Assembly (NCBI GenBank): GCA_020426325.1
Contig: JAGQQG010000051.1
Span: 1 to 44,333, forward strand
Source of the DNA: Planctomycetaceae bacterium
GTDB taxonomy: Bacteria > Planctomycetota > Planctomycetia > Planctomycetales > Planctomycetaceae
Direction: 5' to 3'
Length of the DNA: 44,333 bases
Every line of letters begins with the position of its first letter. Within the stretch, counting starts at the first letter, position 1. Positions 2,245-7,167 of the stretch are shown here, in pieces. The position numbers and the translations under genes are program-made. The notes below the pieces were generated by a model. It saw only the letters and a program-made list of their open reading frames with translations. It had not been told where the DNA came from and did not search any database.

Positions 2245-2274
2245 TTGCAAGAAACATCTGAGTTTTTGTATCAT
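2245..2274 (+). promoter_or_regulatory. Candidate sigma-70 promoter of the metal ABC transporter operon
   Basis: A -35-like TTGCAA (2245-2250) and a -10-like TATCAT (2269-2274) are separated by 18 bases. They lie directly upstream of the binding-protein gene, placing the predicted start of transcription near 2281. This is inferred by eye from consensus only. Confidence 0.4.
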
Positions 2275-2294
2275 CAAAAATTAGTTTTTGATGA
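2271..2294. promoter_or_regulatory. Palindromic operator candidate, 10-bp arms
   Basis: TCATCAAAAA (2271-2280) and its exact reverse complement TTTTTGATGA (2285-2294) are separated by TTAG. The palindrome overlaps the predicted -10 box and transcription start of the metal-import operon, the classic place for a repressor site. The length and symmetry fit a dimeric metal regulator such as DtxR/MntR or Fur/Zur, but no separate regulator gene is seen nearby. There is no clear U-tract, and an intrinsic terminator upstream of the operon's first gene would be out of place. Confidence 0.5.
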
Positions 2295-2306
2295 CAGAAA
2301 ATATCG

Positions 2307-3338
2307 ATGCAACTCGTTGACTCCTATTCCCATAAGAGAGCACACGGCTGGTGCTGGTTATCGATTGTGCTCTCCGTGACAGGTTGTGGTTCATCGAATC
2401 CCACAGAACCATCGACAGCCAATGTGGAAGGAAGATATTCCATTGTTTGCACAACCGGCATGGTGGCGGACATTGTCACTCAGGTCGCAGGTGACCGGGC
2501 TGAGGTGACAGCTCTGATGGCAGAGGGAGTCGACCCCCACCTCTACGTGCCGACGCGAAGCGATGTCGTGCGAATGCAGGAGGCAGACATCATCTTCTAC
2601 AGCGGCCTTCGGCTGGAAGGCGCTATGCAGAAGACCTTCGAAACTTTGTCAGGCAATGGACGGCCTGTCTATGCCGTCACGGCTGAGATCCCGCAAAACG
2701 ACCTGCTGGCCCCCCCCAACTTCGAAGGGCATCCTGATCCGCACGTCTGGAATGACGTCAAGCTTTGGAGCCAGGCGGTCGCCTTCGTGGCTGCAAGACT
2801 GGAAGCGTATGATACCACCAATGCAGAAGAATATCGCGCAAATGCAGAAGCGTATCGACAACAACTCAACGCCCTCGACACCTACGTCCGTGAAGTGATC
2901 GGCACCATTCCGGAAGCCCAACGCTATCTGGTGACCGCACATGATGCCTTCGAGTACTTCAGTCGCTCATACAGAATCCCTGTGGAATCGGTTCAGGGGA
3001 TCACAACGGAGTCAGAGGCCGGCGTCGACGACATCAACCGACTCGTCGACCTGCTGGTCACGAAGAAAGTGCCGGCCATCTTCGTCGAGTCGAGCGTCAA
3101 TGCAGCGAACATTCAGGCGGTCATCAATGGCGCTCAAAGCCAGGGCTGGGCGGTCAATAATGGTGGGACTCTCTTCTCCGATGCCATGGGAGCCGAGGGA
3201 ACCTATGAAGGAACGTATCTCGGCATGATCGATCACAACGCAACCACGATCACCCTGTCGCTCGGGGGCGTGGCTCCAAACAACGGTATGCAGGGCAAGT
3301 TGAATGGAGCAGCAGTTACCACAAATCAGGGCAAATAA
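2307..3338 (+). CDS. Metal-binding lipoprotein of ABC importer (TroA/MntA/ZnuA family)
   Basis: This is the extracytoplasmic solute-binding protein of a Mn/Zn/Fe importer (cluster A-I, TroA fold). The N-terminus has a hydrophobic stretch ending in a lipobox-like SVTGC, with Cys27 as the likely lipidated residue. The four metal ligands expected in this family are present: His78 (GVDPHLY), His146 (PDPHVW), His212 (TAHDAF) and Asp292 (FSDAMG). The His-His-His-Asp set fits TroA/ZnuA-like proteins; whether the metal is Mn, Zn or Fe cannot be settled. No His-rich loop typical of ZnuA is seen, which slightly favours Mn or a broad metal range. It is the first gene of a four-gene operon; the ATPase gene starts 9 bases after its stop. 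No strong ribosome site precedes the ATG. A short out-of-frame ORF begins at 2291 and overlaps this start. Confidence 0.92.
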   Translation: MQLVDSYSHKRAHGWCWLSIVLSVTGCGSSNPTEPSTANVEGRYSIVCTTGMVADIVTQVAGDRAEVTALMAEGVDPHLYVPTRSDVVRMQEADIIFYSGLRLEGAMQKTFETLSGNGRPVYAVTAEIPQNDLLAPPNFEGHPDPHVWNDVKLWSQAVAFVAARLEAYDTTNAEEYRANAEAYRQQLNALDTYVREVIGTIPEAQRYLVTAHDAFEYFSRSYRIPVESVQGITTESEAGVDDINRLVDLLVTKKVPAIFVESSVNAANIQAVINGAQSQGWAVNNGGTLFSDAMGAEGTYEGTYLGMIDHNATTITLSLGGVAPNNGMQGKLNGAAVTTNQGK

Positions 3339-3347
3339 CCTCGACTC

Positions 3348-4181
3348 GTGTCTAGTGTCACCTCCAATTCGGAGACGTCCTCGCAGACGTCGGTTCCCGC
3401 GGAAACATTTGCGTCAGACCATCCCGAGTCCTCGCCTCTGTCGATTCACGACATGACAGTTGCTTATCACCGGAGGCCGGTGATTTGGGATGTCGACTAC
3501 GACGCTCCGGCCGGCAAATTGATCGCCATCGTTGGTCCAAACGGAGCTGGCAAAAGCACTCTCATCAAGGCGACTCTCGATCTCGTCCCCAAGGTCTCCG
3601 GTGACGTGCGTGTTTTCGGTCAACCCTACGAAGAGCAACGCACACGCGTGGCCTATGTCCCCCAGCGGACAAGTGTCGACTGGGACTTTCCTGTGAGCGC
3701 TCAAGACGTCGTCGCGATGGGACTCTATAAGAAGATCGGCTGGTGCCGACCGGTCACGCGCAGGTGGAGAATCGAAGCTCGCGAAGCACTCGACCGGGTC
3801 GGACTGGCTGACTTCTCACGTCGGCAGATCAGCCAACTGTCGGGAGGTCAACAGCAACGAGTTTTCCTCGCGAGAGCCTTAGTACAGCGGGCGGATCTCT
3901 ATCTGATGGATGAACCATTCGCTGGTGTGGATGCAGCCACGGAACGTGCCATCCTGCAAGTACTTCGAGACCTGCGCTCGACAGGAAAGACGGCTCTCGT
4001 GGTCCATCATGACTTGCAGACCGTCGCAGACTACTTCGACCATGTCCTGCTGCTCAACATGCGTCTGGTGGCCTCGGGGCCGACGGCTGAGGTCTTCACG
4101 GAGGAGAATCTTCGCCGCACCTATGGAGGTCGTCTCGCCCTGCTCGATCAAGTCGGCACACGACTGGCAGAGGGGCAGTGA
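3348..4181 (+). CDS. ATPase subunit of metal ABC importer (MntB/ZnuC type)
   Basis: This is the nucleotide-binding subunit that powers the importer. Walker [10 protein letters not shown] (63-71), signature LSGGQQQR (164-171), Walker B LYLMDEP (184-190) and the switch His in VVHHD (220-222) are all intact. The core begins around residue 31, so the first 30 residues, rich in Ser and Thr, are an extra N-terminal tail. The frame starts with GTG at 3348; no good ribosome site precedes it, so coupling to the binding-protein gene 9 bases upstream is likely. Its stop overlaps the start of the first permease by four bases (GTGA). Ending and context match MntB/ZnuC/TroB proteins. Confidence 0.93.
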
Positions 4182-5734
4182 AAATGAAACAACTCCTTTC
4201 CGGACTGGTGGTGGCAGTTCTCGGTGCCATTGTCCTCGTCGAGGCTCACAATACGTCAGAAGAGGGGCACAGCTTTCGAGACTGGCCAATCACTTTCTCC
4301 ATCGCCCCTCAAGCGACAACCGTGGCCCACGCCCCGGAGGTTCCGACCGCCAATGCCTCCCCCCCTACTCCTCCAACACTACTCTCACGTTTGTGGCGGG
4401 TCCTCAGCCTGCGGGATTACAACACGCGCGTGGTGCTGCTGGGGACCACGATACTCGGCATCACCGCAGGGATTGTCGGCACCTTCATGCTGTTGCGTAA
4501 GCGGGCGCTCGTGGGAGATGTGGTGGGGCACTCTGCTCTGCCCGGCATCGCGATTGCTTTTCTGGTGATGGAAGGATTGTCACCCGGCACAGGCAAATGG
4601 CTGCCCGGCTTACTCGCAGGGGCATTTGTCTTTGGGGTGGCAGGTGCCGTGAGTGTGATGTTGATTGAGAAGTACTCCCGCATCAAACCGGATGCGGCAA
4701 TGGCGATGACGCTCAGCGTGTTTTATGGTCTGGGAGCAGCATTATTCACTGTCGTCCAGAAAGTTCCCGGGGGCAATGCAGCCGGACTGAAGACGTATCT
4801 CAGCGGCAAGACAGCATCACTCATCACGGACGATGTCTGGCTGTTTGCAGTCGTCGCTGGAGTGGTGCTCACAGTCACGATGCTGCTGATGAAAGAACTG
4901 ACTATCCTTTGTTTTGACGGTGAATTTGCGGCCGCAGACGGCTGGCCCGTCTTCTGGCTGGATACGCTCTTGATTGGATTGGTGGTGACCGTCACAATTA
5001 TTGGTATGCAGAGCGTCGGCCTGATTCTGGTCGTAGCGACACTCATCATCCCGCCGGCTTCCGCGCGCTTCTGGACGGACGATCTCCGCCGAATGACGCT
5101 CGGAGCGGGCCTGGCCGGCGGGATGAGTTCTTTTTTCGGCACCATCATGAGTGCCCTCTTCCCTCACGTGGCTGCCGGGGCAGTCATTGTGCTCACGGGA
5201 GCATGCCTGTTCGCAGTGAGTTTGCTGTTCGGTACTAAGCGGGGTGTGCTGATCCACTGGTGGAGGCAACGCCAATTACGTCGGGAGGTTGGTCGAGTTG
5301 ACCTGCTGCGTGCGGCTTTCGAACTGGTTGAGCATGCCGTCAGTGCTCCAATTCCCGAGTTTGACGAACTGACAGCTCACGAACTTTCGCTGGCCGATCT
5401 GCTGATGATGCGGACATGGGATGCAGCGTCATTGCAACGGCTGATTATCGCAGCAGTCCGGGAGGGTCTGATGCATCCCACCGGAAAAGATACCTGGAGG
5501 CTGACCCGATCAGGAGCCGAAGAGGCACGTCGTCTCGCAAGGAATCATCGACTGTGGGAGATGTATCTCATGAAATATGCGCATATCGCTCCCAGTCATG
5601 TCGACCGGGATGCTGATCTGATCGAACATGTCCTCGATCCGGAACTCGTTGCTGAGTTGGAATACCAACTCGACCATCCGGACGACGAAATTCCGCAAAG
5701 TTCGCATGCAACCAGCGTCAGTTCACTCGAATAA
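4178..5734 (+). CDS. Metal ABC importer permease fused to a DtxR/MntR-like domain (first copy)
   Basis: Residues about 80-355 form an ABC-3 (ZnuB/MntC) permease with many hydrophobic helices and the conserved [12 protein letters not shown] segment (112-123). After a basic linker (about 360-375) the protein continues for 140 residues that look like a DtxR/MntR metalloregulator: a winged-helix-like part (about 395-448, ending [12 protein letters not shown]) and a dimerisation/metal part with NHRLWEMYL (456-464) and DADLIEHVL (478-486). Aligned by eye to DtxR/MntR, His457, Glu461, Asp480, Glu483 and His484 occupy metal-ligand positions. The first 75 residues carry a signal-like segment and a Pro-rich stretch. 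The start is GTG 4178 overlapping the ATPase stop, or ATG 4184 two codons on. The second permease starts 26 bases downstream. Confidence 0.9.
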
Positions 5735-5760
5735 TCAAAGCGTGCACGCATCCCTTTGCC

Positions 5761-7167
5761 ATGATTCATGAGTTCTTTCAACTCCTGTCTGGCTGGTCAT
5801 CGCTCGACACCGCGATTGCAGGAAGTGCTGCGCTCACAGCCATGTCCTGTTCGCTCCCCGGCGCCTGGCTTGTGCTACGTAAACACTCCATGATGGGGGA
5901 TGCACTCTCGCACACGGCCCTCCCCGGCGTGGTTCTGGCGTTTCTGTTCTCCATCAGCATGAAACAGGCGGGCTGGGTCTCTGCGGCTCAGGAAGACGCT
6001 TTTCTGCAGCTGTTTCTGTTTGTGGGTGCGGTCGTCGTCGGAGTGGGAACCGCATGGTTGACGGAATGGGTTCAACGACTTGGTCGGCTGGAAGGTTCCG
6101 CATCGCTTGGAGTGGTTTTCACCGCCGTGTTCGCATTAGGGCTGCTACTCATCCGGCTTGATGTTGACAATGTTCATCTTGACGTCGATTGCGTGTTGTT
6201 CGGCATTATTGAAACGGCAGCTTTGCAAAAGGTGCCCGGGACATCGATTCCTGAGCCCGTGTTGGTCAACGGAGCTATCTTCCTTGCCAATCTGTTGTTG
6301 GTGGTGCTTTTCTACAAAGAGTTAAAAATCTCCGCTTTCGATCCAGGCCTGGCAACGAGTCTCGGGATTCCGGCACGTGGCATTCATTATGGATTGATGG
6401 CTGTGACGGCGGTCACGGTTGTCGCTGCTTTCACCACAGTCGGCAGCATTCTGGTGATCGGCTTGTTGATCATACCCACTGCCACCGCACTGCTGTTGAG
6501 CGAACGGTTGAGTGTGGTGCTGGCGCTGAGTGTCTGTCTGGCAGCGATCAGTGCCGCGCTGGGTCATGCCTTGACGTTGACGGTGCCTCGCATGCTTTTC
6601 TCGAGACTGGGATACCCGACAATTGAGGATGCAGGAACAGCCGGCATGATGTCCGTGACAGCGGGCCTGTTGTTCCTCATGGCACTGATCCTCGCTCCGG
6701 GGCAGGGTCTGATCTCGAAACTCATCCATCGCCTGCGACTAGGCTTGAAGATTTCTGGTGATGACATCCTCGGCGTGCTGTTCCGTTTCGAGGAGAAGAC
6801 GGCCATGCGACCAATAGACATCTCAGTACCAGCATTGGTTGCCAGGCAGAATGGGATGCGTCCGTGGATGGTCTCACTGTCGGTCCGCAGACTGTTACGA
6901 CGTGACTTAGTCACAAGGCAGACGTCTGGTGAACTCGTTCTCACTGACCGCGGCCGGGAAAGTGCCAAGTCCCTGATACGTGCTCACCGTCTCTGGGAGG
7001 CGTATATGTCCAAACACTTCGAACTCCCGGACGATCACCTCCACGAAACGGCCCACCGCGTTGAGCACTTCATTGACGATGACATACAAGAACGCCTGCA
7101 AAGTGAACTCAACGCACCGACCAAGGACCCACACGGGAAACGCATCCCGGAACTGTCGGACTCCTGA
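5761..7167 (+). CDS. Metal ABC importer permease fused to a DtxR-like domain (second copy)
   Basis: This second ABC-3 permease (about residues 15-315, with MMGDALSHTALPG at 44-56) probably pairs with the first as a heterodimer. The C-terminal 140 residues are an even clearer DtxR-type module: a winged-helix-like region (about 350-402, ending LVLTDRGRESA), then HRLWEAYM (409-416), the metal stretch HETAHRVEHF (428-437) and a DPHGKRIP tail (456-463) like the SPFGNPIP tail of DtxR. By eye, His409, Glu413 and His428 match DtxR site 1 (His79, Glu83, His98). His432, Glu435 and His436 match site 2 (Cys102, Glu105, His106). This is the last gene of the operon. The sensor could gate transport or bind DNA from the membrane; neither is shown by the sequence. 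Confidence 0.92.
   Translation: MIHEFFQLLSGWSSLDTAIAGSAALTAMSCSLPGAWLVLRKHSMMGDALSHTALPGVVLAFLFSISMKQAGWVSAAQEDAFLQLFLFVGAVVVGVGTAWLTEWVQRLGRLEGSASLGVVFTAVFALGLLLIRLDVDNVHLDVDCVLFGIIETAALQKVPGTSIPEPVLVNGAIFLANLLLVVLFYKELKISAFDPGLATSLGIPARGIHYGLMAVTAVTVVAAFTTVGSILVIGLLIIPTATALLLSERLSVVLALSVCLAAISAALGHALTLTVPRMLFSRLGYPTIEDAGTAGMMSVTAGLLFLMALILAPGQGLISKLIHRLRLGLKISGDDILGVLFRFEEKTAMRPIDISVPALVARQNGMRPWMVSLSVRRLLRRDLVTRQTSGELVLTDRGRESAKSLIRAHRLWEAYMSKHFELPDDHLHETAHRVEHFIDDDIQERLQSELNAPTKDPHGKRIPELSDS

Follow-up and report, generated by a model that had tools for sequence, protein, structure and literature searches.

The window analysed here, a stretch of 44,333 nucleotides from a Planctomycetaceae bacterium (contig JAGQQG010000051.1 of assembly GCA_020426325.1), contains at positions 2307-7167 an operon of four genes, which encode a binding lipoprotein, an ATP-binding cassette (ABC) ATPase and two ABC-3 permeases, P1 (518 amino acids) and P2 (468 amino acids). 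We found that both permeases end in tails that profiles, sequence comparison and predicted structures support as DtxR/MntR-like metal-sensor modules. In our judgement, it is probable that the importer carries in these tails its own cytosolic metal sensor, which gates transport, and that a free DtxR/MntR regulator takes charge of the operon's transcription. We see about even chances for a more specific proposal, in which the DtxR halves form a metal-operated clamp: they would pair only when the transporter assembles and would stop import, and the free sister repressor would handle the gene.

DtxR-like modules at the ends of both permeases

The initial annotation, made from the letters alone, had described extra residues after each ABC-3 permease, with a winged-helix-like part and a His/Glu metal part, and both profile searches and models bear this description out. 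The Fe_dep_repr_C profile (PF02742; gathering cut-off, 27 bits) matches both tails, at 55.6 bits in P1 and 78.9 bits in P2. A phmmer search of the Protein Data Bank (PDB) relates the P2 tail to Mn- and Fe-dependent repressors, at up to 9.2e-16, and the P1 tail more weakly (7.8e-5). A second profile named in the annotation did not appear: PF01325, which describes the N-terminal DNA-binding domain, is unmatched in the P1 and P2 tails at E up to 5; by contrast, the free DtxR protein of the same genome (L003) matches it at 2.7e-12. The alignments behind the predicted structures of the single proteins held, besides the window, 70 P2 rows (75 were usable) and 55 P1 rows (64 were usable). In these models each tail adopts the anticipated two-domain fold, a winged helix and a helical dimerisation domain, and a single continuous helix joins it to the membrane domain. 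The AlphaFold2 model of P1 (predicted local distance difference test, pLDDT, 88.3) has a core for which PsaBC is the best match. Profiles, sequence comparison and fold all point to DtxR, which rules out a chance similarity; an origin of the P1 tail in a frameshift or assembly artefact is likewise ruled out, because both tails recur within the same genus and family.

The primary metal-ligand set of the DtxR/MntR family is present in both tails. In P2 it comprises His409, Glu413, His428, His432, Glu435 and His436, which had been placed on DtxR ligand positions from the outset, and our signature analysis confirms the placement; Asp335, in the continuous helix that precedes them, falls on Met10. 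P1 holds a variant set, His457, Glu461, Asp476, Asp480, Glu483 and His484, together with Asp375 in helix 1. The conserved ligands suggest that the tails bind metal, and the Arg/Lys-rich junction points to a cytosolic location for them.

Signatures were scored on six DtxR positions (79, 83, 98, 102, 105 and 106) in 87 distinct P1 and 101 distinct P2 tails found with a model of the sensor domain, a sample from which permeases lacking the domain are absent. The P2 tails read H-E-H-x-E-H in 100 of 101 cases, with positions 79, 98, 105 and 106 identical in all 101 and position 83 in 100; position 102 varies (Glu 58, His 20, Asp 7, Met 6, Ala 5, Ser 3, Asn 1, Gly 1). The P1 tails read H-E-D-D-E-H in 71 of 87. 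Further, one split in a tree of the sensor domains parts P1 (85 of 85, support 0.75) from P2 (101 of 101, support 0.95). The fixed signatures and this split indicate an asymmetric P1/P2 pair of long standing.

Conserved ligands on the presumed cytosolic side, including a P1 site that is Asp-rich in a fixed manner, might also serve to receive and buffer metal as it leaves the channel and to pass it on without any gating. Such a role seems to us quite unlikely, since each tail class keeps a complete DtxR-like site and no loose cluster, and since a buffer would need neither two folded domains nor the constant spacing of a ligand-bearing helix 1.

That constant spacing is a property of both permeases. 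For spacing, helix-1 counts and the entropies given below, the P1 rows were those with the HEDDEH signature (73 rows), a selection that fixes P1 ligand conservation and a low helix-5 entropy by construction and leaves spacing and recognition helix unaffected; from the P2 rows (98), identical tails and tails of more than 215 residues were left out. Eighteen residues separate Gly316, the glycine that follows the last membrane helix, from the helix-1 ligand in all 97 P2 rows that have both anchors, and 18 separate Gly356 from position 375 in 73 of 73 P1 rows. Asp335 itself is found in 92 of 98 P2 tails. The P2 stretch from Glu345 to His409, in which helix 1 ends and helices 2 and 3 and the wing follow, is by contrast anything from 46 to 90 residues long. 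A rigid join to the metal site, combined with a loose DNA-binding half, is the pattern that would be expected of a mechanical sensor.

Another residue of P2 helix 1, Arg342, is present in 98 of 98 P2 tails, and the same place in free regulators is variable (commonest, Gln at 35%); perhaps it makes a contact to the transporter.

Decay of a fused repressor into a passive, vestigial tail is in our view highly improbable. It would agree with a variable recognition helix and with the absence of tails from some relatives (G024 and L143), but decay would spare neither the linker length, which is constant, nor the P2 metal ligands, which are nearly invariant over loci labelled with several phyla.

The winged-helix half, the free regulator and the likely operator

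As a yardstick for the DNA-reading half we used 17 free DtxR-type regulators from the same genomes or stretches, every set being subsampled to 15. Averaged over its columns, the recognition helix has an entropy of 1.39 bits in the free regulators, 2.10 in P1 and 2.36 in P2; the corresponding values are 1.55, 2.21 and 2.18 bits for the wing, 1.25, 1.32 and 1.35 bits for sensor helix 4, and 0.89, 0.74 (lowered by row selection) and 1.24 bits for ligand helix 5. Even among operons that share one operator class (class a, below), the recognition helix varies, at 2.28 bits in P2 and 1.98 in P1. At 50-60% sensor-domain identity, the winged helices are 26% identical in P1, 29% in P2 and 38% in the free regulators. 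The conserved recognition helix that characterizes the DtxR/MntR family is not found in the tails, in a region whose alignment is uncertain. The tail modules, it appears, no longer read DNA and now sense metal at the transporter itself.

The statement in the initial annotation that no separate regulator gene is nearby was incomplete at best: the genome encodes a complete free DtxR regulator on contig C379 (L003 1225-1902), with PF01325, PF02742 and FeoA. A survey for stand-alone regulators, counted by hand with the window's own genome included, gave a separate DtxR/MntR-type frame in 28 of the 29 fused-permease genomes of the relatives' set, most of these frames being judged by length and score alone. 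The one exception, G029, lacks such a frame at E up to 0.001; it is the only genome of its family, its P1 tail is canonical and neither operator box lies upstream. An explanation of that canonical P1 tail by the missing free regulator is weakened by L144 and L145, which have the same layout together with a free regulator.

The likely operator is an imperfect palindrome that ends five bases short of the first gene's ATG. We read it as a pair of neighbouring boxes, TTTTGTATCATCAAAA (2264-2279) and TTTTGATGACAGAAAA (2286-2301), with centres 22 bp apart. The core of the palindrome is a single site genome-wide at up to three mismatches. A second operator elsewhere was sought with TTTTGANTANTCAAAA, which at one mismatch gave one site, on contig C419; no metal gene was seen by eye in that stretch. 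Boxes upstream of 84 loci were called with a threshold of 10 matching letters out of 12, reached by no more than 10% of 50 shuffles, and fall into class a (TTTTGANNNNTCAAAA; 38 loci) and class b (TGTAGCNNNNGCTACA; 21 loci), with both in two loci and neither in 23. Where a long free regulator lies in the same stretch (n = 13), six loci are of class a, none of class b and seven of neither; where a short MntR-type regulator does (n = 9), none is of class a, seven are of class b and two of neither. A hand tally of 22 genomes with an upstream region (21 relatives' loci from a set chosen by PF02742 match, plus the window) assigns class a to 17 of 17 genomes with the long regulator; four genomes with only the short one divide into two b and two a, and G029, with none, has neither. 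Because the same kind of tail occurs in both operator classes, the operator class tracks the free protein. The free regulator would be the likely ligand of the palindrome at 2264-2301.

Two functions had been offered for the tails at first, a transporter that senses cytosolic metal and gates transport, and a membrane-tethered repressor. The former fits best, and the latter is disfavoured. In the form known from Chlamydia, the tail would be cleaved or tethered and would repress the operon in a metal-dependent manner, and an upstream palindrome and a retained winged helix of slightly positive net charge agree with this, as does the architecture, which is that of YtgC-YtgR, reported in the published accounts consulted to bind its own promoter and to be cleaved. 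Nonetheless, we consider such a repressor unlikely here. PF01325 is unmatched, the recognition helix is variable even inside one operator class, a separate regulator accompanies the fusion in 28 of 29 genomes, and the operator class follows that regulator. G029, with its canonical P1 tail and no separate frame, would favour a repressor, but it has neither box, and in L144 and L145, where a canonical P1 stands beside an untailed P2, a free regulator adjoins the operon. The fixed-length helical join to the membrane domain makes release of the tail less probable.

Transporters can also sequester regulators, as happens with MalT and Mlc. By analogy, the tails could capture the free DtxR/MntR protein through their common dimerisation domain and couple the state of the transporter to transcription. 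Tail and free regulator do share a dimerisation-domain family, and do so within the same genome in 28 of 29 cases, yet tails persist next to free regulators of two different kinds (long and short, with different ligand signatures), and the P1 and P2 tails are already available as mutual partners. We rate this capture as very unlikely.

Helix 1 of each module is a direct extension, of fixed length, of the helix that follows the last membrane segment. In the gating mechanism that we prefer, this helix contributes a probable metal ligand, which is Asp335 in P2 and Asp375 in P1, and the remaining ligands come from the next domain, P2 holding the canonical site and P1 the conserved Asp-rich variant. 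In the assembled P1:P2 transporter, the modules would lie side by side and pair through the DtxR dimerisation surface. At high cytosolic metal, the metal would bridge helix 1 and sensor domain and lock the pair; the locked pair would pull along the helix and arrest the membrane domain, a gating of presumably inhibitory sign (trans-inhibition). The free DtxR/MntR repressor would act at the palindrome and control transcription of the operon.

Relatives, exceptions and the importer operon

The surmise that similar fusions exist in other genomes was correct. In the window's own family, 23 of 25 genomes (G000-G024) have ABC-3 permeases, and 22 of these 23 have at least one DtxR-tailed permease; G024 has two short permease frames, both untailed. 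One genome per species was then scanned with an alignment of the fused P2, and the best 80 loci of 587 relatives were taken; P2 tails are present in this set by construction, and P1 tails were not selected for. The loci are labelled mainly Planctomycetota, and also Verrucomicrobia, Kiritimatiellae, Latescibacterota, Poribacteria and Spirochaetaceae, although some labels of metagenome-assembled genomes may be wrong. The closest relative among them is an uncultured Schlesneria sp. (52% identity). Both permeases are complete in 68 of the 80 loci, the remaining 12 being truncated or without P1 in the stretch. A P1 sensor domain is present in 63 of the 68 (HEDDEH in 53, another signature in nine, the canonical one in one), and the commonest pair, P1 HEDDEH with P2 HEHxEH, occurs in 52. 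The missing P1 tails (L059, L068, L101, L119 and L128) are not frameshifts, as the P2 core starts at the P1 end and leaves no room. Three loci without a P2 tail (L046, L144 and L145) have the canonical H-E-H-E-E-H on P1 instead (judged by eye in L144 and L145).

Several points weigh against an in-place sensor. The P1 tail is absent in five of the 68 loci and departs from HEDDEH, with another signature, in nine. L044 and L132 keep an Asp-type P1 tail alone, so that replacement of a missing P2 tail by a canonical P1 is not a strict rule. L142 has no recognisable P1 sensor domain, and its P2 tail (L142:4714-5955), which adjoins a free DtxR gene, has three of the six ligand positions changed (by eye); this natural loss implies that the sensor is dispensable. 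The helix-1 position of P1 is His in 46, Asp in 17 and Asn in 10 of 73 rows. The tails keep the winged-helix fold, and its net charge, +1.6 and +2.1 against -0.1 in free regulators, gives by its slightly more positive value no argument for loss of contact to DNA. Gaps make the winged-helix region hard to align, and alignment errors push entropy up. With respect to the operator, the box patterns were derived from the same upstream regions, as palindromes, and then scored; of the 13 loci where a long regulator is adjacent, seven carry no box of either class; the class-a call is weak in L113 and L132, two of the six; and two short regulators (L029 and L040) were entered by hand from BLAST. The association of operator class with regulator type, for which Fisher's test gives 0.00058 over the 13 loci with a class, or 0.0002 for b and 0.046 for a when "neither" is counted over 22 loci, ignores kinship. 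Finally, the studied relative, YtgR, is described in the published work drawn on here as cleaved and as a repressor, and the regulatory domains of MetNI and ModBC, as their review describes them, sit at the ATPase side and have another fold, whereas those of the window are DtxR-like, on the permeases, and only presumed to inhibit.

Other arrangements of DtxR modules were also encountered. In L143, where neither permease is tailed, one protein with a tandem pair of DtxR/MntR-like repeats (L143:5327-6256) stands directly before the importer. Four stretches have a single ABC-3 permease (L015:4724-6262, L020:4499-6040, L137:5612-7162 and L147:4174-6147), whose tail runs 81-88 residues past domain 2; this extension might be a third domain, and neither L137 nor L147 gives a FeoA match at E up to 0.01. 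The source genomes of L020 and L015 (G028 and G037, respectively) have one ABC-3 match each, and such single-permease importers would make a symmetric version of the sensor. The P2 tail of L013 (L013:4590-6257) also extends beyond the sensor domain and matches FeoA weakly (18.1 bits, under the cut-off), and a divergent free DtxR gene (L013:9477-10169) adjoins the operon. ABC_tran ATPases with a C-terminal Fe_dep_repr_C, ending in CPHGxxIPxG, were found in L136 (5939-7810), L138 (5235-6338) and L139 (4483-5571); none of these stretches yielded an ABC-3 permease. Fusion of DtxR sensor modules therefore extends to transporter-type ATPases. A frame in L140 (4768-5808) has a hydrophobic start followed by matches to the DtxR sensor domain and FeoA.

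The operon of the window (Table 1) unites a binding protein, an ATPase and ABC-3 permeases, as TroABCD and PsaBCA do, and its product is a divalent-metal importer of that type; P1 and P2 are the sole ABC-3 matches in the whole genome. The metal is probably Mn, or perhaps Fe or Zn; the top NCBIfam models for the ATPase are Mn/Fe and Mn importer ATPases, at scores under the model cut-offs. The N-terminus of P1 (4178-4405) is an extension of about 75 residues; the model shows there an additional hydrophobic helix (residues 2-26), joined to the first ABC-3 helix by a linker of low confidence.

Table 1. Features of the importer operon, in window coordinates
Feature	Position	Strand	Evidence
Likely operator, 38-bp imperfect palindrome	2264..2301	.	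Inverted repeat, arms 2264-2280 and 2285-2301, 88% complementary
Substrate-binding lipoprotein, TroA/ZnuA type	2307..3338	+	PF01297 1.7e-76; T. pallidum TroA 1.1e-68
Importer ABC ATPase	3348..4181	+	ABC_tran 1.2e-28
P1: ABC-3 domain (residues 83-351) and DtxR-like tail	4178..5734	+	Profile search; AlphaFold2 model
P1 tail, residues 353-518: winged-helix part and metal/dimerisation domain	5234..5731	+	PF02742 at residues 443-503 (nt 5504-5686)
P2: ABC-3 domain (Pfam 18-273; 5-320 by structure) and DtxR-like tail	5761..7167	+	
P2 tail, residues 313-468: helix 317-347, winged-helix part, metal/dimerisation domain, DPHGxxIP	6697..7164	+	

Comparison with known systems

A search of the literature, made over the starts of abstracts of the papers listed, found no study of DtxR modules as transporter gates; nor did it find described tails on both permeases with two fixed signatures, tails alongside a free regulator that tracks the operator, or a variable recognition helix in such tails. 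The clamp would, to our knowledge, be without precedent as an allosteric gate built of DtxR modules on an ABC importer. If it is real, it would be common to Planctomycetota and several further phyla, and annotating these proteins as repressors or as plain permeases would mislead there. Further, one sensor family would control both the synthesis and the activity of metal importers, a two-speed metal response in which the cell could throttle uptake directly at the pump, and mutants of the metal site would change uptake rather than transcription.

The fusion of a permease to a DtxR module is, as such, already known, and the initial annotation erred in knowing of no functional study. In Chlamydia, YtgC-YtgR (CT069, of ytgABCD) joins a permease to a DtxR-like module that is a metal-dependent repressor (responding to iron or zinc, by study) and is cleaved, according to the portions of PMC5599777 and PMC7755916 used here. 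Orthologous permease-DtxR fusions are reported in 11 phyla in PMC5599777; the published portions also state that homology revealed no obvious Fur, DtxR or Irr homologue in Chlamydia. By these published descriptions, the chlamydial protein resembles those of the window in having an ABC-3-type permease and a C-terminal DtxR-like module in one frame, with metal-coordinating residues kept. It differs in that only YtgC is described as fused, whereas here both permeases are, with different conserved signatures; and in that its module is the repressor and is reported to be cleaved, whereas the Planctomycetaceae bacterium has a free DtxR as well and the tails show no conserved recognition helix. The module is not the cell's DtxR-type regulator here, that place being taken by the free three-domain protein on C379. 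The published view, formed on Chlamydia as far as these portions go, treats permease-DtxR fusions as a route to making a repressor. The role as a clamp would perhaps be the older one, and the chlamydial repressor would have arisen alongside it or out of it.

Treponema troABCDR has the same importer layout, and among solved structures T. pallidum TroA is the nearest to the binding protein; by the description in PMC2628430, however, TroR of T. denticola is a separate gene of the operon. In PsaBC, the Mn importer of Streptococcus pneumoniae, the PDB chain (272 residues) stops where the tails of the window begin. The repressors DtxR, IdeR, MntR and DR2539 share the two-domain fold and the ligand positions with these tails, which, unlike them, are membrane-tethered, lack a third domain and a PF01325 match, and have a variable recognition helix.

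The review PMC10710835 presents fused regulatory domains as a recurring way of controlling transporters post-translationally; DtxR is not named in its main text. The importers MetNI and ModBC, as presented there, carry a pair of C-terminal cytosolic regulatory domains that bind the transported substrate and bring about trans-inhibition, the behaviour that we propose for the paired DtxR-like tails of P1 and P2.

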